From positions 1 through 22,768 of IMG/VR virus record IMGVR_UViG_3300017971_000786: a DNA stretch of 22,768 bases; one strand, given 5' to 3'. The DNA comes from a virus. The translations under genes were made by a program, and so were the position numbers. Of the stretch, positions 1,006 through 22,768 are shown in pieces. How positions within the stretch are numbered: position 1 is the stretch's first letter; each line of letters starts with the position of its first letter. The notes beneath the pieces were generated by a model that worked only from the letters and a program-made list of their open reading frames with translations, did not search any database and had not been told where the DNA came from.

Positions 1006-2406
1006 TTGCTTTCTCTCAACTCTCTACCAGACATAAGACAGGGCTATTGGGCAGCTAGACCAGACAGCTTTGCTCATGTCATGTCTGCTGGAGTCTGGAA
1101 GCCTGCGAGACATCTACAGTGGATCTGTAGTCGGATACAGCCGAGACTGGTCCAGGGGAACTACTACTGCATTGTGAACATGCCACCTGGACACGGGAAA
1201 TCAGACTTACTGTCGAAGTGGATTCCATCATGGTTCCTGTCTTGGGATTTGTCTCGAAAGGTAATTCTGACAAGTTACGATTCAGGATTGTCCTACGACT
1301 TTTCTAGAGACGTTCGTGACATCGTCGGAGAGAGGAACGTTCGAAGGGACAGTTATGCAGTAGCCAGGTGGAGAACACACCAGGGAGGCGGGCTTGCAGC
1401 CGCAGGTGTAAGGGGACCGATCACAGGGAGGCATGGACACCTGCTATCCTGCGACGATCCACACAAAAACTGGCAAGATGCAGTTTCGGAGAAGTCAAAC
1501 GAAACTCTGCATAGTTGGTGGAAAAGTACTTTCATGACCCGTCGAATGGAGAACTCTTCCGTTCTCCTGGTTGGAACAAGATGGGCAGACTGTGACTTGA
1601 CAGGCTGGCTGTTGAGAGAATCAAGGCTCCCATGGGACCACATAGTTCTTCGGGCAATCGCAGAAGAAGACGATCCGATCGGCAGAAAGCCTGGGGAGCC
1701 ACTGTGGTCTAGCAGGTATCCGCTAGAAGGCGAGACGGGCCTGAACGCAATCAAGGAAGAGCTAGGTACCAGACTCTTCGAGAGTATGTATCAACAGCGT
1801 CCTGTCGAAGGTTCTGGGAATATCTGGTCGGAAGACTGGTTCAGGTTCTGGACTCGACCGGTTCTGGACGGTGATCTATGGGAGAAAGAGTTGCTCCCAG
1901 ACAGAGACGATCCTGAAGCGGAGTGGATCCAATCTTGGGATATGAATTTCAAGGAGTCTGGAAGTTCATACGTAGTTGGCCAGGTATGGTGTAGAAAAAA
2001 AGCCTTTTGCTACCTTGCAGACCAAGTTCGAGGCAAGTGGAGCTTTGTCGAAACTCTGAATCAGATTCGTTCACTTTCGAAACAGTATCCACAGGCTTCG
2101 CTTAAACTTGTCGAAGACAAGGCGAACGGTCCTGCGATTATTTCACAACTTCAGAGTGAGATGGGGGGCTTGGTTCCTGTCGAACCCTACGGGTCTAAGA
2201 CCGCTAGAGCCCTGGCTGTATCTCCACAGATAGAATCGCACAATGTCTATCTTCCTAGACCTAATGCTTTTCCATGGGTTCATGGATTCCTCGATGAGTG
2301 TCGAAAGTTCCCGAACTCTGTCAACGACGACCAAGTTGACGCGACCAGTCAAGCGCTATCTCGATTCCAGTTGCGGGGAGGGGGCCTCCTTGCAGGTTCT
2401 CTTTGA
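1006..2406 (+). CDS. terL: Terminase large subunit (packaging ATPase/nuclease)
   Basis: This 466-residue protein is the motor that pumps DNA through the portal and cuts the concatemer. Walker A is PPGHGKS (residues 60-66), Walker B is LLSCDD (146-151), and LVGTRW (188-193) matches the coupling region. The segment MYQQRPVEGSG (261-271) is typical of the linker before the nuclease domain. The RNase H-like nuclease acids are D312 (SWDMNF), E370/D371 (LVEDKANG) and D441/D442/D445 (VNDDQVDA). The start is TTG at 1006 with GGAG at 994-997. The next in-frame ATGs (1078, 1081) have no RBS and would remove the N-terminal helix usual for the family. The portal starts 12 bases after its stop. Confidence 0.96.
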   Translation: MLSLNSLPDIRQGYWAARPDSFAHVMSAGVWKPARHLQWICSRIQPRLVQGNYYCIVNMPPGHGKSDLLSKWIPSWFLSWDLSRKVILTSYDSGLSYDFSRDVRDIVGERNVRRDSYAVARWRTHQGGGLAAAGVRGPITGRHGHLLSCDDPHKNWQDAVSEKSNETLHSWWKSTFMTRRMENSSVLLVGTRWADCDLTGWLLRESRLPWDHIVLRAIAEEDDPIGRKPGEPLWSSRYPLEGETGLNAIKEELGTRLFESMYQQRPVEGSGNIWSEDWFRFWTRPVLDGDLWEKELLPDRDDPEAEWIQSWDMNFKESGSSYVVGQVWCRKKAFCYLADQVRGKWSFVETLNQIRSLSKQYPQASLKLVEDKANGPAIISQLQSEMGGLVPVEPYGSKTARALAVSPQIESHNVYLPRPNAFPWVHGFLDECRKFPNSVNDDQVDATSQALSRFQLRGGGLLAGSL

Positions 2407-2418
2407 AGGAAATTCATC

Positions 2419-3927
2419 ATGAGTTTGTTGAGTCGTTTCCGTGGATGGTGGAGCGGTAGTGCAGAAGGGCAGATTGCGAAAAGTCCAAAATTGGAGAACA
2501 CAGTTCCGAAGATTGACAGGGGCAATCTTGGCCAAGTCCTGAATCTGGCTCTGCAAGAGTTTGCGATCGAAAAGTCTCTGTCTCCGCAAGACATGTATCC
2601 ACAGGCCTTGAGTGGTAAGGCTCGCTGGTCTGGATTCAGTTCTACTTTGGCTCTTGAGCGGTTCAGGGCAGTCTCCTGGGTATATGTCTGTGTGAAGAAG
2701 ACAGCGGATGCACTTGCACAGCTTCCCTGGGCTGTCGAGCAACAGGCTTCAGATGGTTCGTGGGAGGCTGTAGAGAATTCTCCACTCGGAGAGTTGATGA
2801 ACAATCCGAACGAATTCTGGTCCAGGCAGAGCTTCACAAGTAGATACATTTCTGAGCTGCTGTTGACCGGAAACTCTTTGATTGTGAAGATTCGCCCGAA
2901 TCAGATTCCTGTCGAATTGTTCACTCTCCGTCCGCAGAACATTGCTCCGATTCCTTCAAGGGCTGATTATATCAGCGGATACGAAGTGAAGAATCAGGAA
3001 GGAAAGAAATACACAGTTTCAGCTGGAGACGTGATTCATCTGCAGTTTGTAGACCCTGCTGATATCTACTGGGGACTCTCTCCCATCCGAGCAGCAGCAC
3101 GGATTATCGATGTTGAGAACGATTCGCAATCATGGCAGAAAGCGAGTCTCCAGAATATGATGGTTCCTGCTGGGATCTTCCGCTACAACCATCCCATTTC
3201 ACTCGAACAGTTCCAAAAGGAGAAGAATTTTCTGAAAGAAGAATATCAGGGTGCTTTACAGGCTCGAAAGCCACTCTTGCTAGGAAGTCAACAGGGTCCT
3301 GGGCCAGAGTTTCAACAACTTGCTTTGTCACCTGTTGACGTTGACTTCATCGAAACTCGCAAGCTTTCGAGGGAAGAGATTTGCGCTATCTACGGAATGC
3401 CTCTTCCTGTCGCAGGTATTCTCGACCGGGCAACCTACAACAACATTTCCACTGCGAAAAGTATGTGGTGGGATGACACTCTGATTCCGTTGATTGCTCT
3501 TGTTGAGAGCTCATTCAATCTGCACCTGGCTACAGAATTCGCAGATAATCAGAGAGTAAGAGCGGACACGTCGAAGGTGTTTGCCCTGCTTGAGCAACTC
3601 GACAAGAGGCTTGCACTGGTTGAGAGAGCCTGGAAAATGGGAGCTCCATTCAACGAAGCTTCAGAATTCTTTGGGTTGGGCTTCAAGTTTGACGGTGGAG
3701 ACGTTGGTTACATTGCTTCGAATCTGTTCCCTGTCGATGGTATGACTGCTCCAGAAGAAATGCAGAGTATCGCAGAACAGGAAGAAATGGCGCGAAGTCT
3801 GAACTTCGACACTTTCGAAAGGGAACTTGAAGGAAAGGGCAACGGAAAACTCGATCGGTCGGAGCAACTGCAACAAGTGTTTGCTCCGCTTCGTGCACAG
3901 TTCGAAGAGATTCAGAATGCAAACTGA
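2419..3927 (+). CDS. Portal protein, HK97 family
   Basis: This 502-residue protein forms the dodecameric ring at the capsid vertex through which DNA enters and leaves, and onto which the neck is built. From about residue 90 it matches the HK97-type portal family (PF04860): VYVCVKKTADALAQLPW, a GNSLI segment, LRPQNI, a DVIHL strand followed by GLSPI, and the C-terminal-half segment EEICAIYGMPLPVAGI. The length is slightly above the usual 400-480 residues because of a polar N-terminus and an acidic C-terminal tail (residues 430-502). AAGGA lies before the ATG at 2419. It lies between the large terminase and the minor head protein, whose start overlaps its end by 11 bases. Confidence 0.95.
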   Translation: MSLLSRFRGWWSGSAEGQIAKSPKLENTVPKIDRGNLGQVLNLALQEFAIEKSLSPQDMYPQALSGKARWSGFSSTLALERFRAVSWVYVCVKKTADALAQLPWAVEQQASDGSWEAVENSPLGELMNNPNEFWSRQSFTSRYISELLLTGNSLIVKIRPNQIPVELFTLRPQNIAPIPSRADYISGYEVKNQEGKKYTVSAGDVIHLQFVDPADIYWGLSPIRAAARIIDVENDSQSWQKASLQNMMVPAGIFRYNHPISLEQFQKEKNFLKEEYQGALQARKPLLLGSQQGPGPEFQQLALSPVDVDFIETRKLSREEICAIYGMPLPVAGILDRATYNNISTAKSMWWDDTLIPLIALVESSFNLHLATEFADNQRVRADTSKVFALLEQLDKRLALVERAWKMGAPFNEASEFFGLGFKFDGGDVGYIASNLFPVDGMTAPEEMQSIAEQEEMARSLNFDTFERELEGKGNGKLDRSEQLQQVFAPLRAQFEEIQNAN

Positions 3928-4981
3928 ACCATGCTTCCCTCTTTCTAGAAAGGCTCCACCACAAGGTGACCCGTATGGCGCGGACATTCCCAGTCCTATC
4001 GAAAGGCCTGATATTAGACCTTCAGATCCTATTCGAAGGGGTTCGCTTCCAAGGGGTGTTTATAGGCCGATCCCGGTAAATAGACGTGACGTTGCTCAGG
4101 AAATGAGTGATATTGTTTTTGGTGATTCTCCTAAAATGGCTCGCTTTCTGGTGTCTACCTGGAACGCCCAATCTGAAGCGATAAAGTTTGAAGAGATTGC
4201 TAATGCTGTTGCAACTGGCGAACTTCCGCAGAACTGGAATGAAGAATTTGAAGAACTGTACGCTAATGCAATAGAAGAAGAATGTGAATTCTATTACAAG
4301 CGCGCTATTCGAAAAGGGTCTCATCGAATGGTGGCTGGAATAGAGGGGCTTGGTATAGAGCATGATTTTCAGTTGCTTGGTGGTAAACTTACAGAATGGA
4401 TTGAGAAAAGGTCTGCGACTCTTGTTGTGGACATTACTGATATACAGAGGCAGGCATTAAGGAAACTTTTGCGCAACCAGTTGATTATTGATCCCCTTGG
4501 TCCAAGGGAGATTGGAATTCTTATTCGTCCTTTGATTGGAAACACAGAACGTGAAGCAGCATGGGTATCCCAGCGGTTCAACGATTTACTGAAAGGTGGT
4601 CTTTCCGAAGAAAAGGCACTAAGGCAAGCAGAGATTTTTTCTGGATACCTTCGTAGAAAGCGTGCCATTAGGATTGCAAGGACTGAGCTTGCATTCGCCT
4701 ATAACAACGGATCCAGACTCGCGGTACAGGACGCAATCGAAGGGGGAGCATTCCCCCCAGGAGACGGAGTGGTAAAGGTCTGGTATGCCCAGGAAGACGA
4801 AAGGACATGTCCATTCTGTGGACAACTCCACGGACAGATTGTTGGATTTGAACAGACGTTTCCTGCAGTGACAAAACAACTCCCGAACGTGTTTGTCCCC
4901 CCTGCGCATCCTCATTGCCGGTGTGTGATTCTCTACCAGATTGACGAGGCTCCAGAACCAGAAGTCAAACCCGTAGAATAA
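3917..4981 (+). CDS. Minor head / head morphogenesis protein (Mu F / SPP1 gp7 type)
   Basis: The C-terminal region matches the phage Mu F-like / SPP1 gp7 domain (PF04233). It has IARTELAFAYNNGSR (252-266) followed by the Cys/His cluster ERTCPFCGQLHG (295-306) and PPAHPHCRC (328-336), so C298, C301, H305, H331, H333, C334 and C336 are candidate ligands. Proteins of this family associate with the portal inside the procapsid. The frame is open from 3827, but ATG 3917 is preferred: it overlaps the portal end by only 11 bases, whereas 3827 would overlap by 101. This gives 354 residues with a proline-rich N-terminus (1-55). TCGAA words are sparser here than in the flanking genes. Confidence 0.9.
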   Translation: MQTEPCFPLSRKAPPQGDPYGADIPSPIERPDIRPSDPIRRGSLPRGVYRPIPVNRRDVAQEMSDIVFGDSPKMARFLVSTWNAQSEAIKFEEIANAVATGELPQNWNEEFEELYANAIEEECEFYYKRAIRKGSHRMVAGIEGLGIEHDFQLLGGKLTEWIEKRSATLVVDITDIQRQALRKLLRNQLIIDPLGPREIGILIRPLIGNTEREAAWVSQRFNDLLKGGLSEEKALRQAEIFSGYLRRKRAIRIARTELAFAYNNGSRLAVQDAIEGGAFPPGDGVVKVWYAQEDERTCPFCGQLHGQIVGFEQTFPAVTKQLPNVFVPPAHPHCRCVILYQIDEAPEPEVKPVE

Positions 4982-5102
4982 ATACAGTTGACAAACTGCT
5001 GTTTAGTTGCTCACGATATAGGGCGAGTTAGAAAATCCCCAAAGCGACTCAACAATCGGACAGGGAGGAGAAAGAGACAAAAGGCGGACTGAGGGTCACA
5101 CA
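4982..5102 (+). promoter_or_regulatory. Leader of the protease-capsid gene pair; possible promoter
   Basis: This 121-base gap has TTGACA at 4988-4993 inside a short inverted repeat (CAGTT/AACTG, 4985-4998). TATA lies 23 bases downstream (5017-5020), the same spacing as in the gap before the large terminase. GGGAGGAG at 5063-5070 is too far from the start to serve it; GAGGG at 5091-5095, seven bases before ATG 5103, is the likely RBS. I see no terminator. A separate promoter for protease and capsid would make sense but is not shown. Confidence 0.3.
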
Positions 5103-6185
5103 ATGGAATACAAGGCATTCCCTTTCGAGTCTGTAAAGTCAGAGATTGACTTGGAAAAACGGACTATTGCCCTTCATTCGTCTGTGACTATGAATGTAGA
5201 CTTGGGCGATGATATCATCCTGCCAGGGGCATTCGAAAAGACTCTCCGAGAGAAGCGGGAAGACTCAAAGGGAACTTGGAGAATCCCTCTTCTATGGCAG
5301 CACGATTCAGACGTTCCGATCGGAAAGCCTCTAGAGCTCTACGAAGACAATACAGGCCTGTATTCGGTAGACGAAATTCCAGATACCGGGCCTGGTTGTC
5401 CTGGAACAAGGGCGCTGATTCTAGCAAAGTCCGGTGTGGTATGGGGCTGTTCGATTGGCTACTCTCCGCATGGGGCTGTCTTTAACGAAGAGACCGGAAT
5501 CAGGACTATCCCGGAGATTGAGCTTTTCGAAAGGTCGATTGTGACTTTTCCGATGAACGAGTCTGCAAGGATTCTGGGAGTTGGCGACTCGAAGCGTAGA
5601 TGTCTGCAACTGTTGACTCCAGAACTGCAGTCGAAAATCGGAAGAGTCCTGCGAGGAAGTAGCCTTTCGAAATTGGAGGAAGCGATCGGATTGCTTCTAG
5701 CAATTCTCGAAACGGCCAGTGTCGAGACAGAGGATTCTAGCGAAAAGCAGATCAAGGCGGTCGTTCCTTTCGAAAGCTACTCTCTCGACGAGACTGGTGA
5801 TTGGGATGGGCCTTCGGAGATAGCAGCCGCGTCTGTCGAAGACTTGCGTGTCATGTCGACTTGGTATGACAGTGAGAATCCAGACATCAAAGCAGCATAC
5901 AAGCTTCCACACCATAGAGCAGACGGATACGCGACTGTTTGGAGCGGAGTATATTCGGCAATGGGAGCACTGCTAGGGGCGAGGGGTGGGGTTGATATCC
6001 CTGAATCTGACAGGCAGGGAGTATATACTCATCTGTATCGTCACTACGAAGAATTTGAAAAAGAAGTTCCAGAGTTTCGATCTTTGGAACAGATAGAAAG
6101 TGAGAAGCAGATCGGCTATTCGGCCGACGAAGTAAAGGCGCTTCAAGAGAGCGTTGACAGTTGGATTGAGCGATTCCATGTTTAG
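5103..6185 (+). CDS. Prohead maturation protease (U35, HK97 type) with C-terminal extension
   Basis: Residues 1-160 match the HK97 prohead protease family (PF04586). The sequence has ILPGAFEKTL, the catalytic His in LLWQHDSD (H67), the nucleophile region GCSIGYSP (S117), and the ELFERSIVTFPMNESA block (141-155) with conserved acids just before it. The enzyme cuts the capsid delta domain and internal proteins during maturation. Typical family members have about 200 residues; this one has 360. The extra part (about 215-330) has a distinct conserved-looking core: AYKLPHH (265-271), GVYSAMGALLGARGGV (282-297) and HLYRHYEEF (310-318). I recall similar segments in some phage prohead proteases, but know no function for them. 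The major capsid gene follows directly. Confidence 0.9.
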   Translation: MEYKAFPFESVKSEIDLEKRTIALHSSVTMNVDLGDDIILPGAFEKTLREKREDSKGTWRIPLLWQHDSDVPIGKPLELYEDNTGLYSVDEIPDTGPGCPGTRALILAKSGVVWGCSIGYSPHGAVFNEETGIRTIPEIELFERSIVTFPMNESARILGVGDSKRRCLQLLTPELQSKIGRVLRGSSLSKLEEAIGLLLAILETASVETEDSSEKQIKAVVPFESYSLDETGDWDGPSEIAAASVEDLRVMSTWYDSENPDIKAAYKLPHHRADGYATVWSGVYSAMGALLGARGGVDIPESDRQGVYTHLYRHYEEFEKEVPEFRSLEQIESEKQIGYSADEVKALQESVDSWIERFHV

Positions 6186-6197
6186 GAATCGCGATTC
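6186..6197. repeat. 12-bp perfect palindrome between protease and capsid genes
   Basis: GAATCGCGATTC reads the same on both strands and begins on the base after the protease stop codon, 26 bases before the capsid ATG. It has no loop, so a duplex binding site is more likely than an RNA hairpin. Function unknown. Confidence 0.5.
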
Positions 6198-6222
6198 TCA
6201 GTTTCCAAGGAGTTAAACGGAA

Positions 6223-7719
6223 ATGAGTGTGGAAAAAGCACAGGCCGATCTGAACAAGTTGCAGAAGTCGATTGACCAGCTTGGAGAGAATGTTGCAGGA
6301 CTTCTGTCGAAGCAGGACAAGGAGATCCAGACGAACGGCGAAGCCTCTCGTGATACTGCGAAGAAACTAGACGCAATGAATGAGAAGTGGGCTGGCTTCG
6401 AGTCGGAAATCAAGGGGATTCAGAAAGATCTTCAGGAGAAAATCTCTGTATGGGAAAAGAGGATGGAGCGCCGTTCGAAGGCTGGCTTCGGGAGTGGTTC
6501 CGATCGGAAGAGTCTCGGAAAGGCCTTTATCGAGAGTGAATGCTTTCAGAAGGCACAGACAGACGGAGACCTTCGTGCGAAGAAGTTCTCTTTTGAAAAG
6601 GGTGACATCTGGCTTCCTGGACAGCGGAAAGATACCATTCTCACCAGTGCAGAGCTTGGCGCAGCAGCTCCGACTTTCCGATGGGATGAGATTATCAATC
6701 TCCCCGTTCGTCCACGGAAACTCTTCGATCTGATTCCATCGATCAATGTCAACACGAACAAGATTGAGTATCCCGAAGAGACGGTCAAACATGAACTGTA
6801 TGCTGAACTGGAGAGCCAGGCAGCATCTGGACAGCCAGATGTTGTTCTCGAATATACCGCAGAAGGATTCTTCGAAGGGCAGATTGTTACTCTCTCTCCT
6901 GGTCTTGGTGTAGAAGAAGAGGCAGAGATTGACACAATCGACTATGACACCCGAACTCTAACAATGACTGGGAATCTGACGAATACGCATGCTGCAGGTA
7001 ATTCCTGTATCAGTGACAAATTCGTGTATACGCCAGAGGCGAAAATCAAGCCGAAGTCCCGCGTGGAATTTGACCTCGCAGAAGCCACGATCAAGACTCT
7101 GGCTACCATCATGCCAGTGTCGAAACAGATGCTAGAAGATGCCCCTGCGCTTCAGCAGTACATCGACATGAGGATGAATGAATTCATCGAGCTGTCGAAG
7201 GAATCGGAGCTGCTGTATGGTGACAATTCCACTCGCCGAATTCAGGGAATTCTGACGCACCCTGATATTCAAAACTATTCGTGGAGTTCCGGTACTGTCG
7301 GGGATACCAAGCTTGACGCAATCCGACGGGCAATGACGCTCGCAATGCTCTCTTTCCTGCCACCTGATTCTGTGGTTCTGCATCCGAACGACTTCGAAGA
7401 CATCGAGACGACGAAGGCAACGGATGGACACTATGTGTTCGCTCAAGTGCAGAGCGGGAATGGGGTAACCAGGGTATGGAGGATGAATGTTGTTGAGTCT
7501 CCTGTGATTGAAGAGACACATGCTCTTGTCGGAGGCTTTTCGACTGGTGCTGTTATTTGGGATCGTCAAATGGCAGAAATGTCCATCTCAGATCAAAATC
7601 GCGACTGGTGGGAGAAAAATGTGATTGCAATGCGCCTGGAAGAGCGAATGGCACAGAGTGTGATTCGTCCACAGGCCTTTGTTGATGTGTACTTCAATAG
7701 TCCACCAGCCGCTCCCTAG
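6223..7719 (+). CDS. Major capsid protein, HK97 fold, with inserted domain
   Basis: Residues 1-85 are strongly heptad-like and charged, fitting the scaffolding delta domain that the upstream protease removes. From about 135 the chain matches the HK97-type capsid family (PF05065): RPRKLFDLIP, EAKIKPKSRVEFDLAEATIKTLATIMPVSKQMLED in the E-loop-to-P-domain transition (written here as EAKIKPKS at 272-279 and IMPVSKQMLED at 296-306), QGILTHPDIQ (341-350), and the C-terminal RLEERMAQSVIRPQAFV (471-487). At 498 residues it is long for the family. The excess lies at about 208-268, inside the expected E-loop, and reads as a beta-rich unit (GQIVTLSPG, EAEIDTIDYDTRTLTM, THAAGN). AAGGAG at 6207-6212 is the RBS. 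It should be the most abundant virion protein. Confidence 0.93.
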   Translation: MSVEKAQADLNKLQKSIDQLGENVAGLLSKQDKEIQTNGEASRDTAKKLDAMNEKWAGFESEIKGIQKDLQEKISVWEKRMERRSKAGFGSGSDRKSLGKAFIESECFQKAQTDGDLRAKKFSFEKGDIWLPGQRKDTILTSAELGAAAPTFRWDEIINLPVRPRKLFDLIPSINVNTNKIEYPEETVKHELYAELESQAASGQPDVVLEYTAEGFFEGQIVTLSPGLGVEEEAEIDTIDYDTRTLTMTGNLTNTHAAGNSCISDKFVYTPEAKIKPKSRVEFDLAEATIKTLATIMPVSKQMLEDAPALQQYIDMRMNEFIELSKESELLYGDNSTRRIQGILTHPDIQNYSWSSGTVGDTKLDAIRRAMTLAMLSFLPPDSVVLHPNDFEDIETTKATDGHYVFAQVQSGNGVTRVWRMNVVESPVIEETHALVGGFSTGAVIWDRQMAEMSISDQNRDWWEKNVIAMRLEERMAQSVIRPQAFVDVYFNSPPAAP

Positions 7720-7735
7720 TCGGGAACTTTTCATA

Positions 7736-7762
7736 GGTTCTGACTCTTTCTGAGTCGGAGCC
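7736..7762 (+). promoter_or_regulatory. Strong hairpin downstream of the major capsid gene
   Basis: GGTTCTGACTC (7736-7746) pairs along its full length with GAGTCGGAGCC (7752-7762), eleven pairs including two G-U, around a five-base loop. There is no T run after it, so it is not a standard intrinsic terminator. Its place 17 bases after the capsid stop fits an mRNA-stabilising or processing hairpin that would separate high capsid expression from later genes. Confidence 0.6.
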
Positions 7763-7797
7763 CTTGGAGAACGGCCCGAAGCAAGCGGAGCTGGACA

Positions 7798-8118
7798 GTG
7801 AATAAAGCCCACCAAAAAGTAAGAGTTATCAGGCCCTTCAGGATGCTTGGACATATGCAGCCTATAGGGAGAGAGATTGTTGTCAGGGTTATACTTGCTA
7901 GAGCCCTGCGAAGTTCTAAGCGGGCCGTGTTCGTCGAGGAAGGAACTCCGAAGAGACAGGCAAAGGATCGGGAGAAGAAGGTTACAAGTCCTGTCGATAC
8001 GAAGGTTGTGTCTCCTGTCGAAGAGAAGTCTGGACGCTGCCAGGGTGTTACTGCTGCTGGAACTCGCTGCAAAAGAAACGGAAAGTTCAACGGATACTGT
8101 GCATCGCACGCACGATAA
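7798..8118 (+). CDS. Small protein with C-terminal Cys/His motif (CX9CX9CX2H)
   Basis: The GTG start at 7798 is supported by GCGGAG seven bases upstream. The 106-residue product has two parts. The basic N-terminal half (KVRVIRPFRMLGHMQPIGRE then a helix ending in SKRAVFVEE) looks like small proteins often encoded just after phage capsid genes, which I recall as head-proximal proteins of unclear role. The C-terminal half has a spacer with a repeated (T/V)SPV motif, then GRCQGVTAAGTRCKRNGKFN and YCASH, giving CX9CX9CX2H, a likely zinc-binding module. It precedes the first appendage gene, whose RBS overlaps its stop. Possible roles are nucleic-acid binding or a small capsid-associated protein; neither is proven. 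Confidence 0.75.
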   Translation: MNKAHQKVRVIRPFRMLGHMQPIGREIVVRVILARALRSSKRAVFVEEGTPKRQAKDREKKVTSPVDTKVVSPVEEKSGRCQGVTAAGTRCKRNGKFNGYCASHAR

Positions 8119-8129
8119 GGGGTTCTGTC

Positions 8130-8153
8130 AATGGCTTGGGGAGACCACGATCA
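8130..8153 (+). repeat. 24-bp direct repeat at gene start, copy 1 (copy 2 at 9162-9185)
   Basis: The 24 bases at 8130-8153 are identical to 9162-9185 and cover the first codons of both anchor-bearing genes (MAWGDHDQ in each). Similarity continues imperfectly for about 130 bases. This shows a duplicated gene start with exchanged 3' parts. Confidence 0.9.
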
Positions 8154-8892: not shown

Positions 8893-8899
8893 GTGAGAC

Positions 8900-9163: not shown

Positions 9164-9185
9164 TGGCTTGGGGAGACCACGATCA
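9162..9185 (+). repeat. 24-bp direct repeat at gene start, copy 2 (copy 1 at 8130-8153)
   Basis: Identical to 8130-8153; it covers the ATG and first codons of the 573-aa protein. The two copies are 1,032 bases apart, so homologous recombination between them would delete the 253-aa gene and the small gene after it. Confidence 0.9.
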
Positions 9186-14159: not shown

Positions 14160-14171
14160 GAGTAGAGAGAA

Positions 14172-15539: not shown

Positions 15540-15597
15540 CCCTTTCTCTCATAGGGCACACACAGAGGAAACACACAACAAAGGGAGAGAGAGAAAG
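15539..15597 (+). promoter_or_regulatory. Tube gene leader with two competing hairpins
   Basis: GCCCT (15539-15543) can pair with AGGGC (15553-15557). Alternatively CTTTCTCTC (15542-15550) can pair perfectly with GAGAGAAAG (15589-15597), which includes the first base of the GTG start and lies next to the GGGAG RBS (15583-15587). The two share bases 15542-15543, so they exclude each other. The second would block translation start. Regulation is inferred from pairing only. Confidence 0.35.
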
Positions 15598-16019
15598 TGG
15601 CAAAGACATTCGACTTTAAAAAGGTTGCGGTTATCGTCGCAGGTGTCCCCATTCAAGGGTTCATTGACGGAGACGCAATCGTAGTTGCAAAGAACTCAGA
15701 TGCATGGGAATTGACTGTCGGAGTCGACGGAGAGTCTACTCGTTCCCGTTCGAACAACGAATCAGGAAGAATCACCCTGCGTCTCCAGGGCTCTTCTTTG
15801 TCGAACGCCTATCTTGACGGCCTTCGAACTGGCGATGAATTGTCAGGACTCGGACAAGTTCCAATCATGATCAAGGATCTTTTCGGAACTCTCCTGGTGA
15901 ATGCAGCACAGTGCTGGTGTGTGAAAGTTCCAGATGTCACACTTTCGAGAACACCGGGACAGAGAGAGTGGGTCTTCGAATCTGGCAACATCGCAATGGC
16001 CGGAGGGGGCAACGTCTAG
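15597..16019 (+). CDS. Tail tube protein (DUF3277 family)
   Basis: The start is GTG 15597 with GGGAG at 15583-15587. The 140-residue protein matches the DUF3277 tube family (PF11681): PIQGFIDGDAIVVAKNSDAW, GVDGESTRSRSNNESGRITL, the QGSSLSN segment, an IMIKDLFGTLL strand and TPGQREWVFESGNIAMAGGG at the end. Its subunits stack as hexamers into the inner tube, through which DNA leaves. The pairing with a DUF3383 sheath immediately upstream is the standard order, and both proteins are expected at high copy number. Confidence 0.92.
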   Translation: MAKTFDFKKVAVIVAGVPIQGFIDGDAIVVAKNSDAWELTVGVDGESTRSRSNNESGRITLRLQGSSLSNAYLDGLRTGDELSGLGQVPIMIKDLFGTLLVNAAQCWCVKVPDVTLSRTPGQREWVFESGNIAMAGGGNV

Positions 16020-16070
16020 TCCTTCTTCTGTCGAATCCCAAAGCGACACAGAAATGGAGCGAAAAGAATC

Positions 16071-16595
16071 ATGAGAGAGATTGACGACAAGTCTACAATC
16101 GAAGACGACTACGGTGAGAGCCACCAGTATTACGTACAGCAGCACCCGGCAGGCGAGGGATTCAGGCTTCTTATTCGTCTTGTCAGAATGGCTGGTGGAG
16201 CGCTAGGTAGGACGTGGGGTGCTTTCTCTCCGTCTGAGATTGGCGAGAAGATTGGCGAGATTGCAGAAGAGTTGAAGGGAGGGCTAGACGGAGACAGTCT
16301 AGCTTCTGCTTTCGAAAAGCTCGCAACACAGATTTTGGAGGAAGGAGCAGACGATTTTGTGGTTGAAATTCTCAAGCACTCTGCAAGAGACGGTCAGAAA
16401 ATCACAAGAGCAATCTTTGACTCTGCATACTCCGGGAACTACGGGGAGCTTTTATCTGCAATCTATCTTGTGTTGAGGGTCAACTATGGCCCTTTTTTGC
16501 AGAAGAGACTTGGAGGGTTTACCGCTGGCGCTCCGGGGATTCTGTCGAAACTGACAGCGAAGCTCCAAACATTGGAGAAGCAGCTAGGAAACTAG
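16071..16595 (+). CDS. Tail assembly chaperone, zero-frame product
   Basis: The ATG at 16071 has GGAGCG 12 bases upstream (16054-16059 region), and the product has 174 residues. The family is too diverse to confirm by motif; the call rests on position between tube and tape measure, helical acidic sequence (IGEKIGEIAEELKGGL, LATQILEEGADDFVVEILKH) and the frameshift arrangement. Such chaperones coat the tape measure and bring tube subunits to it. A slippery heptamer lies near residue 143. A -1 frame, open from 16421, continues 182 bases beyond this stop and ends one base before the tape measure ATG. The frameshifted form, from either candidate site, would have 235 residues. Confidence 0.8.
   Translation: MREIDDKSTIEDDYGESHQYYVQQHPAGEGFRLLIRLVRMAGGALGRTWGAFSPSEIGEKIGEIAEELKGGLDGDSLASAFEKLATQILEEGADDFVVEILKHSARDGQKITRAIFDSAYSGNYGELLSAIYLVLRVNYGPFLQKRLGGFTAGAPGILSKLTAKLQTLEKQLGN
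16493..16499 (+). promoter_or_regulatory. Slippery heptamer T TTT TTG for -1 frameshifting
   Basis: In the zero frame the codons are CCT TTT TTG, so T-TTT-TTG is an exact X-XXY-YYZ heptamer. It lies inside the region where the zero and -1 frames are both open (16421-16595). A second, weaker candidate is A-GGA-AAC at 16586-16592, just before the zero-frame TAG. Both give a 235-residue fusion. Confidence 0.65.
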
Positions 16596-16777
16596 GGCTG
16601 AACTTGTTCATCTGGTTACCTGCAGTAATGGGGGGCTGGGATCCTGTAGTGATAGAGCAGACGTGGTCAATCTATGACTGTCTCGACGCTATGAAAGCTC
16701 TACAGGTCCGAGCCTCTGTTATGAGTCATATGTTCGGAAAGTTGGGAAGCGGTATCAAGGGAAGGCTCGGAAGGTAG
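16499..16777 (+). CDS. Tail assembly chaperone -1 frame extension (fusion C-terminus)
   Basis: The -1 frame is open from 16421 (after TGA 16418-16420) to TAG 16775-16777. From the heptamer at 16493-16499 it adds 92 residues, among them APNIGEAARKLGLNLFIWLP, PVVIEQTWSIYDCLDAMKAL and a Gly/Lys/Arg-rich end. The 61 codons after the zero-frame stop have no other gene, an internal codon pattern that looks coding, and no RBS for an independent start. This is the lambda G/GT type arrangement, in which a small share of ribosomes make the longer protein that binds the tape measure through its C-terminal part. The ends are exact for the frame, but which slip site is used cannot be told from sequence. 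Confidence 0.8.
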   Translation, partial: AEETWRVYRWRSGDSVETDSEAPNIGEAARKLGLNLFIWLPAVMGGWDPVVIEQTWSIYDCLDAMKALQVRASVMSHMFGKLGSGIKGRLGR

Positions 16778-16778
16778 T

Positions 16779-18950
16779 ATGGCAGGTTCAATCACAGTCA
16801 GAGAGCTTTTGACAGTCCTCGGAGTGAATGCCGACACTGCAACCGTTCGTGACTTTGACAGGGCTGTGAACCGAACTGCTAGGACAATGAATCAGGCTGT
16901 ATCGCAGACCAATCAACTGTCTGCTAGCGTTGGCGGTTTGATTCGTTCTTATCTAGGCTTTCAGGCAATAAATATTGTTGCTCGTGGTGTCTTCGAAGCA
17001 AACAAGCAGTTCGAGAGTTTGCATGCTTCTCTTCAGACAACAGAAGGTTCTGTAGAGGCAGCAGACGAGGCTTTCGAACGAATAACAGAATTCACAACTT
17101 CTACTCCTTTCCAACTTCAGGAAGTAACATCAGGATTCATCAAACTAAAGAACATGGGCCTGGACCCTTCTGATCGTGCACTGCGTTCTTATGGGAACAC
17201 AGCTGCTTCGATGAGTAAGAGTTTGAATGATATGGTCGAAGCCGTTGCTGATGCTACAACTGGTGAATTTGAAAGGTTGAAAGAATTCGGAATCAAGGCT
17301 TCGAGCCAGGGGAACAGGGTACGATTCACCTTCAAAGGAGTAACTACAGAAGTAGGAAAGAACGCGAAAGAGATTGAAGAATTTCTAATGCGTATCGGAG
17401 AGACTGATTTTGCCGGGGCAATGGATCGACAAATGGACACCCTTGGAGGAAGGGTGTCGAATCTTCAAGATGCTTTCTTTCAGTTCTCCATTTCTGTAGG
17501 AAAGGCTGGTCTTTCAGGTGCATTGAACGAATTGCTTGTGTTGATAATTGACACAACAAACGAGTCTGACGATCTAGCTGTAACACTTGGGCAGACTCTA
17601 GCAGGTGCAGTTCGTATGCTCACCAGGACTCTACGGTTCCTGATAGAGCACGCAGACGAAGTCAAGATTGCACTGGAGGCAATGCTGCTGCTAATGGCAG
17701 CGCAGAGGGTACAGTCCTTCTCTGCGTCCATTGTGGGCTTGATACAGTCTCTTCGAGCACTCGACGCAGCAGCAACCCTTCCTGCAATCAAGCTCGCAGC
17801 GATAGCCGCAGCCATCCTGATTGTGATTCTGATAATTGACGATCTGATTGTCTTTCTTCGTGGTGGAGACTCTCTGATAGGTCGTGCTTTTGCACACTTC
17901 GGAGTAGGCCCGAAAATAATCGAAGACATCAGGGATCGGATTCTCACTATTGTGAATCAAGGGATCGCCTTCCTTTCTACAGTGGGCAGACGGTTCCTGG
18001 CGGTCTTCCTTTCTGCTGTCGAAAGAGTTCTTCCGATAGCGATCGGAATGGTTCAGAAGCTTGTGCCTGTGGTAATGGCACTTGCAACGAGACTTCTTCC
18101 GGTTCTAGAGAAGATTGTCAAAGCGATTGTTGAGATTCAGATAGCGATTTTCGAAGCCACTGTAGAAGTTGTTTCGGAGTTGATTCCTGCAGTTGCAGAA
18201 GTCGTCAAGTCTGTTGCCATTGCAATCACAGTCCTGCTTCCGACAATCATGGACCTGGCTCGCACAATCTTTGGCATTGTGCAGGAACTCTGGCCAGTCG
18301 TCCGTGGTGTTATCGGCCTGATTTTCTCGGCTGCCCTGGACATGATTGACCAATTGTTGCCGTTGGTTATGGCGATAATTGACATCGCAGTTCCGAATAT
18401 CAAGTTGATTCTTCGGGTTACTGTCGAAGTGTTCAAGGCAGTCTTGGCCGTTGCAGTTCCAGTCCTGAAAGTTATCATTGCGAACATTACTACTGCAGTG
18501 AAGTTCGGACTAGATGTCTTGGACTTTCTGTTGACTGTCTGGAAATGGTTCGTTGGGATCTTTGTCTCAATTTGGGAAACTGTTTCTGAGCCCATCATTG
18601 CAGTATGGGAAGGGATCAAGGCAACTCTTCTCACAATTCTGAACACCGTGATCGGAATCATAAATTCTGTGATAAACGGGGTTCTCTCTGTAATCAATGG
18701 GATCATTAGCGAGATAAACAATGTTGTCGAAGAGATTCCTGGAGTAGGGAAGATCGAGACTTTCGACTTTCAGGAGATTGCGTTGACTGTACCTAATCAA
18801 CCTTCTCCGGTTGTGACTCAGACTGGAGATATCACGGTGCAAGTCGACGGTTCGACAGACATGGGTCCAGACGAGTTATCTAGGTCTGTGAATGACGGGC
18901 TGAATCAGAGCCTGCGAGAAGCAGCGCGTTTCCTAGGAGCAACGGGTTAG
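16779..18950 (+). CDS. Tape measure protein, 723 aa
   Basis: The N-terminal 300 residues match the phage tape measure core: coiled start, then FESLHASLQTTEGSVEAADE, FTTSTPFQLQEVTSGFIKLK, and LGGRVSNLQDAFFQFSISVG. From about 335 a hydrophobic segment (AAIAAAILIVILIIDDLIVF, then LRGGDSLIGRAF) begins a long stretch of hydrophobic helices to about 660. It ends in a polar tail. Tape measures set tail length, fill the tube lumen and enter the host membrane on injection. At roughly 1.5 angstrom per residue a tail near 100 nm is expected. GGAAGG at 16769-16774 serves as RBS inside the chaperone extension. Its stop overlaps the next start (TAGTG). Confidence 0.95.
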   Translation: MAGSITVRELLTVLGVNADTATVRDFDRAVNRTARTMNQAVSQTNQLSASVGGLIRSYLGFQAINIVARGVFEANKQFESLHASLQTTEGSVEAADEAFERITEFTTSTPFQLQEVTSGFIKLKNMGLDPSDRALRSYGNTAASMSKSLNDMVEAVADATTGEFERLKEFGIKASSQGNRVRFTFKGVTTEVGKNAKEIEEFLMRIGETDFAGAMDRQMDTLGGRVSNLQDAFFQFSISVGKAGLSGALNELLVLIIDTTNESDDLAVTLGQTLAGAVRMLTRTLRFLIEHADEVKIALEAMLLLMAAQRVQSFSASIVGLIQSLRALDAAATLPAIKLAAIAAAILIVILIIDDLIVFLRGGDSLIGRAFAHFGVGPKIIEDIRDRILTIVNQGIAFLSTVGRRFLAVFLSAVERVLPIAIGMVQKLVPVVMALATRLLPVLEKIVKAIVEIQIAIFEATVEVVSELIPAVAEVVKSVAIAITVLLPTIMDLARTIFGIVQELWPVVRGVIGLIFSAALDMIDQLLPLVMAIIDIAVPNIKLILRVTVEVFKAVLAVAVPVLKVIIANITTAVKFGLDVLDFLLTVWKWFVGIFVSIWETVSEPIIAVWEGIKATLLTILNTVIGIINSVINGVLSVINGIISEINNVVEEIPGVGKIETFDFQEIALTVPNQPSPVVTQTGDITVQVDGSTDMGPDELSRSVNDGLNQSLREAARFLGATG

Positions 18951-19558
18951 TGGCTGTCCTTCTAGTCAAATCTCCTGCCACATCTGGCGCTCGAATCATC
19001 GAGCTGCTTGCTCTTACAATTCTCGACTTCGACGCAACCACTCAAGAGTCTCACAATCACAAAGTCAACTGGACTTCACACCCTGTCGAAAGCGGGATTG
19101 ATGTCACAGACAACGCAGTGATTCAACCGGATGAGTTGACTCTAAACTGCGTCATTTCGAATACACCACTTGGTTTGTCCCTTCCGATTCCTGACAAGGC
19201 TCTGTCTGGATACGAGACCCTGCTTCGTTTGAAAGACTCGAAAAGACTTGTGACTGTTGTAACTGGTCTTCGTGTTTACACGAATATGGGAATCACGAAT
19301 GTGTCTGTGCCACGGGCACAGGGAGACGGTCAGAAACTAAGATTCACAGTCAATTTCAAAGAGATTCGGAAGGTTGTTTCTGTCGAAATAGAGATCCCTC
19401 CAGAGTTGCTAAAGCCAAAGGTTAAAGCAGGTGGACAATCTCCAGTTGACGCAGGGACGCAGCCTACAGCAGCAGTAGAAGCAGGTTCAGAGGAAGCAGC
19501 AGGGGTTGACGTCTTCCAGTCGAAAGCAGCCAAACTCTTCGATAAGTGGGCCCAATAA
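18950..19558 (+). CDS. Dit-like baseplate protein
   Basis: The start is GTG 18950, overlapping the tape measure stop. The diagnostic part is FDATTQESHNHKVNWTSHPV then ESGIDVTDNAVIQPDELTLN and CVISNTPLG: the 'E-S-H ... H-P-V-E-x-G ... D-x-x-x-x-x-P-D/x-x-L' pattern of Dit-like proteins encoded after the tape measure in small contractile tails (Dit_like family). The C-terminal 50 residues (about 150-202) are Pro/Ala/Glu-rich and look disordered, then KAAKLFDKWAQ may form a short helix. In this class the protein forms a ring at the tube tip joining tube, hub and wedges. The 202-residue length is ordinary. Confidence 0.82.
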   Translation: MAVLLVKSPATSGARIIELLALTILDFDATTQESHNHKVNWTSHPVESGIDVTDNAVIQPDELTLNCVISNTPLGLSLPIPDKALSGYETLLRLKDSKRLVTVVTGLRVYTNMGITNVSVPRAQGDGQKLRFTVNFKEIRKVVSVEIEIPPELLKPKVKAGGQSPVDAGTQPTAAVEAGSEEAAGVDVFQSKAAKLFDKWAQ

Positions 19559-19926
19559 TGGCAGAGAAGTTTCGAACATTCTCTGATTTTGCCTCTTTCG
19601 AATACTCTTGCACTGTCGAAGGGACTGTGTACAGGTTCCGGTTTCAGTTTCATCCACGTTGTGGCGGATGGTATGTGGATATCATGGAATCTGATAGAAC
19701 TCCGATTGTTATGGGGACTCGTGTTGTCTTGGGTTGGCCACTTTTCGAAGGGCACAAAGATCCGATGCTTCCCAGCGGATTAACTCTTGCCCTGAACATG
19801 GACGGAGACTTGGTTGAGTTGACAGAGCAAGACGAACTAGGAGACAGGGTCAGAGTTGTTTACGTTCCTCTTGATGAGTTGACTGCTCCAGAAACGACAC
19901 CTTCTCCAGTTGTCGAACCAGTGTAG
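19558..19926 (+). CDS. Baseplate plug-type protein (Pam3 gp18-like)
   Basis: The frame is open from a GTG at 19546, but ATG 19558 is chosen because it overlaps the previous stop (TAATG), the common coupling here. The 122 residues form an all-beta protein: FEYSCTVEGTVYRFRFQFHP, GGWYVDIMESDRTPIVMGTR, WPLFEGHKDPMLPSGLTLAL and RVRVVYVPLDEL. The 'W-Y-x-D-I ... P-I-x-x-G-x-x-V ... P-S-G' pattern is that of the small baseplate plug family represented by cyanophage Pam3 gp18 (PF22479). These proteins line or block the hub channel. The C-terminal 12 residues are Pro/Thr-rich. Confidence 0.8.
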   Translation: MAEKFRTFSDFASFEYSCTVEGTVYRFRFQFHPRCGGWYVDIMESDRTPIVMGTRVVLGWPLFEGHKDPMLPSGLTLALNMDGDLVELTEQDELGDRVRVVYVPLDELTAPETTPSPVVEPV

Positions 19927-19935
19927 AGCGATCGT

Positions 19936-20766
19936 GTGTTTGAATTCTTCGACAGAGCTGTTGACATCAGGATTGGGATCCCTGCGAATCCTCAGGGAAC
20001 GTTTCCAGGTGCAGGCCGATCCTGGACTCAACTTCGAACGGAATTCGAAGTCAGCAGAAGTCTAGGAAAAGACCCGAACACAGCGAAGGTGAAACTCTAC
20101 AATCCAGACGAAGTCTCGATCGGACTCATCCAAGCAACCGGTTCCTTCCTTCAAGTCTTTGCTGGATACGGTCTGATTCCGAGTCAGATTTTCTCAGGTA
20201 ACATTGCGAAACGTGGTGTCACTATCGAGAAGAGAGACACGGATAAAATCGTATCCATCGAAGCAGGAGACGGAGAGCTTGCATACACAAGCGTTCCTTT
20301 CAACTGGCACTATTCAGCCGGAACAGAAGTCAACGTTATCCTGTCGAACCTTATACTTGCTTTAGGGGTTGGCCTTGGTCCTGGCTCTCCGGTTCTTCCG
20401 CCTCGTGTTCTCCTGAACGATGTAACGTACTACGGAAGGGCTGTAGACGCTCTGAACGAGCTTGTGACAGATGCCGGAGGAACGTGGAGTATCCAGGATG
20501 GGAATCTGGAGATACTGCTAGGAGACGCTCCTACGTCCGATCTGGCTGTGTCTTTGACACCTGCAACTGGACTCATCGGAAGCCCAAAGCGGACAGATGA
20601 TGGAGTAACTCTTCAGTCACTTCTTCACACCGGTATTAAGCCTGGAAAAATTATCAACGTTGTCTCGTTTCAAGTAACAGGATTCTATAAAGCAAAAGTT
20701 GTAAAGCATCGTGGAGATACTCACGTGAATCGCTGGCAAACAGAAGTAGAAGCCGTTCCGCTATGA
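19936..20766 (+). CDS. Baseplate hub protein (gp27/gpD-like)
   Basis: The GTG at 19936 is the first start in a frame that begins VDIRIGIP; upstream GTAGAG is a weak RBS. The 276 residues read as a hub: RTEFEVSRSLGKDPNTAKVK and LYNPDE, FLQVFAGYG, a SGNIAKRGVTIEKRDTDKIV strand pair, SIEAGDGELAY, and a final FQVTGFYKAKVVKHRGDTHV followed by RWQTEVEAVPL. The 'H-x-G-D-T-H-x-x-x-W-x-T-E-V-E' end is typical of phage hub proteins with the gp27/gpD fold. It should trimerise beneath the tube and carry the spike encoded next, whose ATG overlaps its stop (ATGA). Confidence 0.85.
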   Translation: MFEFFDRAVDIRIGIPANPQGTFPGAGRSWTQLRTEFEVSRSLGKDPNTAKVKLYNPDEVSIGLIQATGSFLQVFAGYGLIPSQIFSGNIAKRGVTIEKRDTDKIVSIEAGDGELAYTSVPFNWHYSAGTEVNVILSNLILALGVGLGPGSPVLPPRVLLNDVTYYGRAVDALNELVTDAGGTWSIQDGNLEILLGDAPTSDLAVSLTPATGLIGSPKRTDDGVTLQSLLHTGIKPGKIINVVSFQVTGFYKAKVVKHRGDTHVNRWQTEVEAVPL

Positions 20767-21434
20767 CAACGCAATTTGAAGGCACAACTCCGACACTCGC
20801 AGAAGTCCTGGAAAGGTCTGTGTCTAGTGGTCTAGGTAATGTCTACACTGCATTGCCTGGCAGGATTATCACATACAATCCAGCACAACAAAGCGCAACT
20901 GTCCTTCCTGGTGTCCAAGTCGAGAACAAAGCATCTGGAGAAATGGAACCATTGCCTGTGATAGGTGGAGTTCCTGTGCTTTTTCCTTCCGGCGGTTCCT
21001 TTCGAATGGTGTGGCCACTGGTTTCAGATGACATTGTGACTCTGTTCTTCTGCTCCAGTTCCATAGAAGACTTTCTTTTTTCGACTACTCCAGACAATAC
21101 AACCACTTCGAAACGTAGACACGGCCTTTCTGATGCAGTAGCTATTCCTGCCCTTCGTCCTTTCTCTTCTCCTCTTATTCCTGTTGATGCGACGGCACTA
21201 GAACTCGGAAGTGATCTGGCACAGATTGCGTTTGTTCCTGCTGGACGAGTTAAACTTGGTTCTTCTTTGGCTATTGATCCGATCGCTCTTTCGACTGCGA
21301 ACGAAGCAAACTGGACACAGTTCGACGCATGGGCAGCCAGTGTTGAATTGATTCTGACTGGTCTTGGGGTTCCTGTTCCAATACCATGGGTTCCACACAC
21401 TCCGACGGGTTCGACAAAGGTTGACGGAGTATGA
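20763..21434 (+). CDS. Baseplate central spike protein (Gp138 N-terminal domain, gpV-like)
   Basis: The 223-residue chain has the Gp138-type OB domain (PF18352) at its N-terminus: YTALPGRIITYNPAQQSATV, LPVIGGVPVLFPSGGSFRMV, WPLVSDDIVTLFF and RRHGLSDAVAIPALRPF. The strands from 130 to 180 (LELGSDLAQIAFVPAGRVKLGS) resemble the start of a beta-helical needle. The end, with its 'W-x-x-F-D-A-W ... L-x-x-L-G' helix, is unusual for a free needle tip and may cap it. The spike punctures the outer surface. I see no iron-binding HxH tip motif, so a separate tip protein may exist. It is translationally coupled on both sides (ATGA overlaps). Confidence 0.85.
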   Translation: MTTQFEGTTPTLAEVLERSVSSGLGNVYTALPGRIITYNPAQQSATVLPGVQVENKASGEMEPLPVIGGVPVLFPSGGSFRMVWPLVSDDIVTLFFCSSSIEDFLFSTTPDNTTTSKRRHGLSDAVAIPALRPFSSPLIPVDATALELGSDLAQIAFVPAGRVKLGSSLAIDPIALSTANEANWTQFDAWAASVELILTGLGVPVPIPWVPHTPTGSTKVDGV

Positions 21435-21814
21435 AAGACTTCCTGCTTGATAATCTCAACAACGATTTGGTTATTGACGAGACTTCAAACTTTGTCTTTG
21501 TCGAAGATGAAAGTCTTGTGGCACAAAGAGTTGTGCAGCGCCTGGAAACAGGCACAAACGAGTGGCTTTTCGATACTGAGCTAGGGATTGACTATCTCGG
21601 ACAAGTCCTTGTGAAGGCTCCAGACTTAGGTGTCATTCGTGCGATGTTCATTTCGGAAGTCAATACCACTGAAGGGGTCGGTGCTGTTACAAAATATCAA
21701 CAGGAACTGGAAGACAGACGACTCATTGTTGAAATGGAGTTTACAGCGGGAGAAGAAACTGTAGAGTTACGTGGAGCACAGGAAGGGGACGGCTTCTCCT
21801 GGACACAACTGTAG
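21431..21814 (+). CDS. Baseplate wedge protein, gp25-like
   Basis: Its ATG overlaps the spike stop (ATGA). The 127 residues match the gp25-like wedge family: SLVAQRVVQRLETGTNEWLF, DTELGIDYLGQVLVKAP and INSTEG-type loop (EVNTTEGVGAVTKYQQEL), then the beta end. The conserved 'Q-x-x-x-x-R-L-x-T-x-x-x-E-W' and 'G-I-D/x-Y' are visible. In contractile tails gp25 links wedge to sheath and starts sheath assembly. The following gene is J-like, the usual partner in the wedge. Confidence 0.9.
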   Translation: MKDFLLDNLNNDLVIDETSNFVFVEDESLVAQRVVQRLETGTNEWLFDTELGIDYLGQVLVKAPDLGVIRAMFISEVNTTEGVGAVTKYQQELEDRRLIVEMEFTAGEETVELRGAQEGDGFSWTQL

Positions 21815-21823
21815 AGATTCGAA

Positions 21824-22768
21824 ATGTCTGGACTCGATGCGAACGGATTCACAATCAAACGACTCGAAGAGTTGATTAATGATATGGTGACTCGTGCACG
21901 TAGTCCTGACTACTTTGGTCCTGCTATTGCAGCCGAGAACGATACACCGATTGGACATATGATTAGACTTGTAGCAGTGTCCCTATACGAACTATGGGAA
22001 CTCGGACTGCAACTCTACGATACTCGCGATCCATATGCAGCCGATGGGATTCCGCTTGACAATCTGTGTCTGATAACCGGAGTCGAAAGAGAGCCGCAAA
22101 GGAAGTCTACAGTACTGGAAAGGTTCAACGGGTCCTTTGGAACAGTTGTTCCGATTGGAACAGTTGTCAGAGTAACAGACGGTCCGCGTTTTGTTACCAT
22201 AGAGGCAGGTTCAGTTCCCCTCATTGGGTTTGTTGATCTGAACTGTGAGGCGGAAGAATATGGACCGATCGAAGCCCCAGCAGGAACGATCAATGAGCTA
22301 GTTACCCTGATTGCAGGGATAACATCTGTTACTAATCCCAATGATGCTGCTATCGGTCGCTTCGTCGAAAGCAACGAAGACTTGAGGATTCGGAGAGAAA
22401 TTGCTCTTAGAGCTGTAGGAGCTGGAACAGACCAGGCAATCAGAGCAAGAGTTGACGATTTGGACGAAGTTGACGCAGTCAACGTCATTTCGAACAGGAC
22501 TCTGTATACAGATTCATACGGAATCCCAGGAAAGGCCTTTCTTACTGTGATTTGGCCAGATCCTGTTTCAGATCCTGAAGCCGTTGCGGAAGCAATCTGG
22601 GAAGTAATGCCTGCGGGAATCAGGTCCTACGGGACAGAAGAATTTATAGTCACAGACGAACAGGGATATCCACAGTTTGTCGCTTTTTCGTATGCAACAG
22701 AGCTTATTCTCTACATGGAGTTTGTGATTGGATATTCTTCTGCATACGAAGGAGACAATGCAGTCAAG
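21824..22768 (+). CDS. Baseplate wedge protein, J-like (gp47/gpJ type), 3' end outside window
   Basis: The ATG at 21824 follows the gp25-like gene by nine bases (GTAGAG upstream is a weak RBS); the frame is open for 315 codons to the window end, so the C-terminus is missing. The sequence matches baseplate J-like proteins (PF04865): LYELWELGLQLYDTRDPYAA, DGIPLDNLCLITGVEREPQR, GTVVPIGTVVRV, and NEDLRIRREIALRAVGAGTD followed by the VDDLDEVDAVNVISNRT and GIPGKAFLTVIW blocks. Proteins of this family make up the wedge core and bind gp25-like and fibre-attachment partners. Length seen is typical for the first 80 percent of the family. Confidence 0.93.
   Translation, partial: MSGLDANGFTIKRLEELINDMVTRARSPDYFGPAIAAENDTPIGHMIRLVAVSLYELWELGLQLYDTRDPYAADGIPLDNLCLITGVEREPQRKSTVLERFNGSFGTVVPIGTVVRVTDGPRFVTIEAGSVPLIGFVDLNCEAEEYGPIEAPAGTINELVTLIAGITSVTNPNDAAIGRFVESNEDLRIRREIALRAVGAGTDQAIRARVDDLDEVDAVNVISNRTLYTDSYGIPGKAFLTVIWPDPVSDPEAVAEAIWEVMPAGIRSYGTEEFIVTDEQGYPQFVAFSYATELILYMEFVIGYSSAYEGDNAVK
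22137..22167 (+). repeat. 13-bp direct repeat, 18-bp period, in the J-like gene
   Basis: TTGGAACAGTTGT occurs at 22137-22149 and 22155-22167. It encodes GTVV-PI-GTVV in frame, matching the repeated glycine-threonine strand seen in J-like proteins, so codon-level conservation probably explains it. Confidence 0.7.

Follow-up and report, generated by a model that had tools for sequence, protein, structure and literature searches.

The pentamer TCGAA and its longer forms CTGTCGAA and CTTTCGAA occur in a fragment of an uncultured contractile-tailed phage in two- to fivefold excess over what would follow from protein sequence, codon usage and dinucleotides. The fragment (IMG/VR record IMGVR_UViG_3300017971_000786) is a structural module of 22,768 bases and was analysed in full as the window; it covers only 22.8 kb of the phage genome, and the 26 genes used in the analysis are all located on the + strand. 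The enrichment is real. It is specific to the word, is found at the DNA level independently of codons, was replicated in two stretches of the window and is uneven between modules. TCGAA and its extended form CT[G/T]TCGAA may constitute a short recognition word which is read on the DNA and is most like Chi. We favour this reading tentatively; it competes with two other serious explanations, a HIP-like methylation signature and a neutral context bias.

Over-representation of TCGAA

The whole window contains 98 TCGAA and 82 TTCGA, including 41 copies of the palindrome TTCGAA. About 23 TCGAA are expected from base composition and 34-36 from dinucleotides, and TCGAA is the commonest 5-mer in the window. 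This agrees with a first-pass annotation of the sequence, which had described the word as over-represented beyond composition. The local counts given there (10 in the terminase gene, 9 in the portal gene and 11 in 18950-19926) are exact; only the CGT-CGA-A example quoted at 1532 is misplaced and actually lies at position 1542.

If codons are shuffled within genes, 34 TCGAA are expected in the genes, and if synonymous codons are shuffled 45 are expected, compared to 96 observed. In the strictest null synonymous codons are swapped while protein, codon usage and dinucleotides are kept exactly. It predicts 52 +/- 6 TCGAA (52-53 across runs; z ~7.5), and by z-score under this null TCGAA is at the top of all 5-mers. 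The observation thus survives a codon- and dinucleotide-preserving shuffle, which the annotation had named as the analysis that might refute it. The dinucleotide make-up as a cause of the excess is ruled out by the dinucleotide expectation and by the same null. Enrichment in all three codon phases, claimed earlier on single examples, is seen in the counts of 28/52/16 compared to 15.7/29.5/6.4 under the strictest null, each phase being raised (z 4.1-5.1).

Under a third-order Markov model 80 TCGAA are expected in comparison to the 98 found (z 3.5), and TTCGAA matches its maximal-order Markov expectation. Little residual is left at order three and above because the sub-words carry the same signal. 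A trinucleotide-preserving codon shuffle was not used as a null, since such a shuffle fixes the word itself. Deviations from the null are seen for further words, too: TCGGA (55 vs. 26.7), GATTG and CTGTA are up, and CCTC, CTCA and TGAAG are down. These other words and the Markov result are in keeping with a neutral bias, i.e. a lineage-specific mutation or codon-pair bias which peaks at TCGAA and has no function. In our view such a bias is nearly as probable as a Chi-like word, although the specificity over 7-8 bases, the loss of the effect with single changes, the rise in three phases and the presence of one module without excess speak against it.

Codon choice around the word

Three amino acids in three frames shift to the codon that completes TCGAA, and they do so only in that context. 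Serine is encoded by TCG in 28 of 46 cases (61%) before AA, but in 70 of 516 cases (14%) elsewhere (p 4e-12). For arginine, CGA accounts for 16 of 39 codons (41%) in the T_A context compared to 37 of 328 (11%) elsewhere (p 1e-5), and it stays at 14-15% in the contexts A_A, C_A and G_A. Valine is encoded by GTC in 18 of 37 cases (49%) before GAA and in 127 of 566 (22%) elsewhere (p 7e-4), while before GAG the share of GTC is 4 of 24 (17%).

A codon or codon-pair preference for translation could be read from the phase NTC-GAA, which holds 52 of the 96 genic sites. However, all three phases are up and different amino acids switch their codon only where the word gets completed, and we give such a preference almost no credence. 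Codon usage and codon-pair bias as the cause are largely ruled out by these phase and context tests, in which the enrichment is not confined to one phase.

The longer word CT[G/T]TCGAA

TGTCGAA occurs 24 times in the genes compared to 5.1-5.4 under the strictest null (z 9.7). In the codon and dinucleotide null 2.3 copies each of CTGTCGAA and CTTTCGAA are expected in the genes, where 15 and 10 are found, respectively. Both together are described by CT[G/T]TCGAA, the best-fitting longer word with 25 copies in genes vs. 4.5-5.2 (z 10.6). This longer word was picked after inspection of the data and its z-scores are therefore inflated, the replication figure given below being safer. The variants CT[G/T]TTGAA, CT[G/T]CCGAA, CT[G/T]TCAAA, CT[G/T]TCGAC, TGTTGAA and TGTCAAA are found about as often as expected; CT[G/T]TCGGA (3 vs. 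0.8) and CT[G/T]TCGAT (4 vs. 1.3) are slightly up, with tiny counts.

The palindrome is raised as well. In the codon null TTCGAA reaches 40 vs. 18.4, TTTCGAAA 6 vs. 1.0, and TTCGA on the + strand in genes 81 vs. 50. These values would suit a HIP-like, essentially palindromic signature centred on TTCGAA/TCGA, which would be generated by a host methyltransferase together with biased mismatch repair and carried over to the phage. A methyltransferase/mismatch-repair model of this kind has been published for HIP1 (PMC4390886). We regard a HIP-like origin as somewhat less likely than a neutral bias. The strongest words TGTCGAA and CTGTCGAA are non-palindromic, the reverse complement TTCGACA is near expectation (4 vs. 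3.0, codon null), and palindromes without the flanking T show a mild rise only (18 vs. 10.2). The signature is also not window-wide, as described below.

CT[G/T]TCGAA has a density of about 1.1 per kb, and nearly all of its sites lie inside genes. On the + strand CTGTCGAA is located at 1210..1217, 1802..1809, 2177..2184, 2909..2916, 5833..5840, 6304..6311, 7192..7199, 8015..8022, 16542..16549, 18016..18023, 18421..18428, 19083..19090, 19380..19387, 19613..19620 and 20341..20348; a further copy at 16028..16035 is intergenic and occupies the short gap between the genes 15597-16019 and 16071-16595. CTTTCGAA is found on the same strand at 2074..2081, 5664..5671, 12988..12995, 13236..13243, 16309..16316, 17071..17078, 19595..19602 and 20999..21006, and within the palindrome CTTTCGAAAG at 3812..3819 and 5767..5774. 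Beyond about 8 bases the flanks differ between the sites. Insertion of a dispersed repeat of the REP type is ruled out, as the flanks of the word are not conserved, unlike those of a repeat found in one bacterial genome (G775, see below).

Orientation of the word

Outside the palindrome the pentamer is distributed 56:41 in genes in favour of the + strand (p 0.21 against the codon expectation, 0.08 against equality). This preference of the pentamer is weak and not significant, and of the strand preference for TCGAA over TTCGA suspected earlier only the orientation of the extended word is retained. In the whole window TGTCGAA is oriented 25:4 and CTGTCGAA 16:2. In the genes the ratio is 24:4 for TGTCGAA (p 9e-5 against equality) and 25:5 for CT[G/T]TCGAA (p 0.0002 against equality). 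Resting on words chosen after inspection, the polarity of the extended word is suggestive.

As all genes are on the + strand, the orientation of CT[G/T]TCGAA follows transcription, which would suit a signal read on the mRNA, e.g. by a ribonuclease or an RNA-binding protein. However, the reverse-oriented TTCGA is also raised, and at the gathering threshold no Rfam family matches the window. We consider an mRNA signal very unlikely.

Distribution along the window and replication

Two stretches are enriched. The left one (1213..7719, + strand) comprises the genes for terminase, portal, MuF-like head protein, protease and major capsid protein, and genes 8-8118 contain 40 TCGAA vs. 22.3 and 12 CT[G/T]TCGAA vs. 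2.4 in the codon and dinucleotide null. The right one (15597..22768, + strand) encodes a tail tube-like protein, tape measure, hub and baseplate, with 39 TCGAA vs. 16.8 and 11 CT[G/T]TCGAA vs. 1.6 in the same null. Four genes at 8131..12149 (+ strand) are without excess (TCGAA 7 vs. 7.8, no CT[G/T]TCGAA), and the neck and tail-sheath genes at 12369..15539 (+ strand) show a mild one (TCGAA 10 vs. 6.0, TTCGA 14 vs. 7.4, no TGTCGAA). The spread through most structural genes noticed at first sight therefore holds for the two enriched stretches, but not for genes 8131-12149. In the nearest relative (L091, see below) only a 51-residue stretch encoded by these genes has a homolog. The gap fits a module gained from a lineage without the signature; other causes are possible.

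For replication, the ranking of words was made from genes 8-8118 only, and its leading words were then examined in 15597-22768 under a null of their own. TCGAA, which led the 5-mers, is found there 39 times vs. 17.5 (p 6e-6), and TGTCGAA, which led the 7-mers, 12 times vs. 2.5 (p 1e-5). A role at the DNA rather than the codon level, as the first-pass annotation had proposed, gains support from this replication in two stretches, from the three phases and three amino acids, and from the single-base variants, which are not clearly enriched.

Comparison with related loci

For calibration 87 loci, each 14 kb or longer and almost all of them homologous phage or prophage loci, were put through the same codon-aware test. 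With its best 7-mer the window reaches 10^-8.5, a value exceeded by five loci only (L034, L033, L030, L158 and L032). All five carry CGATCGC words, the known core of HIP1, and L030, L032, L033 and L034 derive from cyanobacterial genomes. Next below the window is the phage contig L123 (GCCTCGA, 10^-8.0), which contains a palindromic HIP-like word around CTCGAG (GCCTCGAG 17 vs. 2.6, codon null). The window ranks 8th among the 87 loci at the 5-mer level and 9th at the 8-mer level, and it is chiefly at a length of 7 bases that its signature stands out. While the rank at the 5-mer level would be in line with a neutral bias, it counts against such a bias that at the 7-mer level the window is exceeded by HIP1-type loci only.

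The E. coli-type Chi GCTGGTGG was recovered by the same test in enterobacterial loci (Xenorhabdus, Proteus and Kluyvera). Measured in homologous loci under the same null, the word of the window lies between cyanobacterial HIP1, which is stronger, and E. coli Chi, which is weaker. That HIP1 of cyanobacterial phage loci looks alike in this test is a point for a HIP-like origin. Like HIP1 (GCGATCGC, in cyanobacteria and their phages), the word of the window is a highly iterated short CG-containing word which is raised independently of codons. HIP1, however, is an 8-base palindrome, whereas the strongest word of the window is non-palindromic and missing from part of the fragment, and HIP1 is not among the leading words of the window.

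By terminase, capsid or portal the nearest relative is L091 (56, 54 and 47% identity, respectively; 43.9 kb, GC 63%); with portal and sheath as single-sequence queries no relatives were found. The signature of the window is not present in L091, nor is it shared by about 330 related loci. Among the compared loci of at least 5 kb the window ranks first for TCGAA, TTCGAA, TGTCGAA and CTGTCGAA. TTCGAA is under-used in L091 (1 vs. 5.6 expected, one strand) and does not occur in L177/L178 (0 vs. 27-32 expected, both strands), and L175 has a single TCGAA vs. 12.9 expected. As far as can be judged from these sequences, the avoidance suggests that TTCGAA may be subject to restriction in hosts of related phages. 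The lack or under-use of TTCGAA in L177, L178 and L091 would mean that selection acts on the word among these phages, which is also in favour of a HIP-like signature.

Search in bacterial genomes

About 1,220 genomes of bacteria were scanned for CTGTCGAA; they were drawn from the groups to which the terminase relatives belong, which may not include the true host. They comprise Pseudomonadota (299), Bacillota (299), Desulfobacterota (148), Chloroflexota (151, plus one order with 82), Verrucomicrobiota (145), Synergistota (81) and 37 mixed genomes, with phylum labels deduced from the locus used as centre. A host skew, considered earlier as one cause, is not apparent in these groups, whose sample may lack the host: no genome has a CTGTCGAA density comparable to that of the window. 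The lack of a genome sharing the signature also stands against a HIP-like origin. Absence from these genomes says little on the true host.

The highest density, 135 CTGTCGAA per Mb, is found in the Chloroflexota genome G775 (loci L335-L342), because a long dispersed repeat of this genome contains the word. The repeat (ggtttccccacctgcggtgagcCTGTCGAAccgcacccc) is longer than 30 bases and accounts for hundreds of CTGTCGAA copies. CTGTCGAA is abundant in the related genomes G1025-G1030 and G1008, too. The phage sites resemble the dispersed repeat gcggtgagcCTGTCGAAccgcacccc of G775 in that it contains CTGTCGAA; unlike this long unit with its constant flanks, they have only the word itself in common.

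G727, G736, G745, G753 and G769 have hardly any copies of the control word AAGCTGTC (1-12 per strand) but a normal level of CTGTCGAA, which looks like an avoidance of AGCT-type sites. Viral contigs in which two CTGTCGAA are separated by 150-180 bases were also inspected; among the matches listed the best ones (L394, L383) are local repeats, and none of the listed contigs shows a dispersed multi-word pattern.

A possible Chi-like recognition word

Chi is the closest functional analogue of the word, because the latter is non-palindromic, about 8 bases long, dispersed and apparently oriented, and because Chi is over-represented in phages without their own recombinase (PMC3784561). Known Chi sequences are GCTGGTGG in E. 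coli, AGCGG in B. subtilis, GCGCGTG in L. lactis, GAAGCGG in S. aureus and GCTGGCGC in P. syringae. Like these the word of the window is short (~5-8 bases), dispersed and above composition, and it seems to be oriented, and occurrence in phage genomes that rely on host recombination would be a further shared feature. Unlike Chi it is less G-rich and has a palindromic companion, TTCGAA, and its extended form is far denser than Chi in E. coli, which occurs once per 4.5 kb.

If the word is Chi-like, a host enzyme of the RecBCD, AddAB or AdnAB type would enter the phage DNA at a free end, and at CT[G/T]TCGAA it would stop degrading the DNA and begin recombination. The phage would then resemble Chi-rich phages which need host recombination for the concatemers used in packaging. 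Copies of the word would be gained through selection at synonymous positions, and because they would accumulate in this way a recently exchanged module would be without the word. A more specific version, namely that phage and host use a new Chi, CT[G/T]TCGAA, which is degenerate at one position and not G-rich, and with which the conserved genes were filled as the phage lacks both a recombinase and a nuclease inhibitor, is conceivable but unlikely.

Several observations weigh against a Chi-like word. CT[G/T]TCGAA is not among the known Chi sequences tabulated in PMC5959072, which are G-richer. The polar signal proposed in the first place applies to CT[G/T]TCGAA only and is modest once corrected for codons (p 0.011 for TGTCGAA and 0.035 for CT[G/T]TCGAA vs. 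codon expectation). By subtraction, TTCGAA outside CTTTCGAA also reaches ~30 vs. 16, and a polar signal would not account for this rise. TGTCGAA is absent between 8.1 and 15.7 kb, though genes 12369-15539 have homologs in L091. Finally, no host genome with the word was found, none of those scanned being near the 790 CTGTCGAA per Mb of the window.

Another type of dispersed phage site are the L5-type stoperators of mycobacteriophages, asymmetric repressor sites of about 13 bases with conserved flanks, which lie mostly between genes. The sites of the window are likewise short and asymmetric, have one orientation along transcription and are scattered through the phage genome. In contrast to stoperators they are about 8 bases long, their flanks are not conserved and nearly all of them lie inside genes.

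Genes of the window

All genes listed here are on the + strand. The head genes encode the large terminase (1006-2406), portal (2419-3927), MuF-like head protein (3827-4981), protease (5103-6185) and major capsid protein (6223-7719). They are followed by genes for a jumbo-phage-type sheath-like protein (9163-10884), neck protein (12812-13273), sheath (14172-15539), tape measure (16779-18950), hub (19936-20766) and baseplate wedge proteins (21431-21814 and 21824 onward). Between the capsid and tail modules a small protein is encoded at 7798-8118, whose C-terminal cysteine/histidine motif matches DUF5763.

Two sheath-type proteins are thus encoded by one small phage. The product of 9163-10884 shares 33-38% identity with tail sheaths from jumbo phages (PhiPA3, Noxifer and their relatives) and matches PHROG 15433, while that of 14172-15539 is a sheath of the ordinary kind (DUF3383/PHROG 205). 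The proteins of 8131-8892 and 9163-10884 have the same kind of N-terminal module (MAWGDHDQ...VDHQNLRD), which by its sequence looks like a shared attachment domain or a duplicated domain. A 51-residue stretch of the 8131-8892 product recurs in the relative L091/L172 with 51% identity.

Implications

The codon-aware test recovers HIP1 and Chi as positive controls and could therefore be used to screen entire collections of phages. If a host enzyme reads the word, Chi or modification signals that are so far unknown would be findable from the phage sequence alone, and the host would not be needed. If, on the other hand, it reflects only a neutral bias, the window provides a word that is enriched in all three phases without a cause in codon usage, which would matter for host prediction by word counts.

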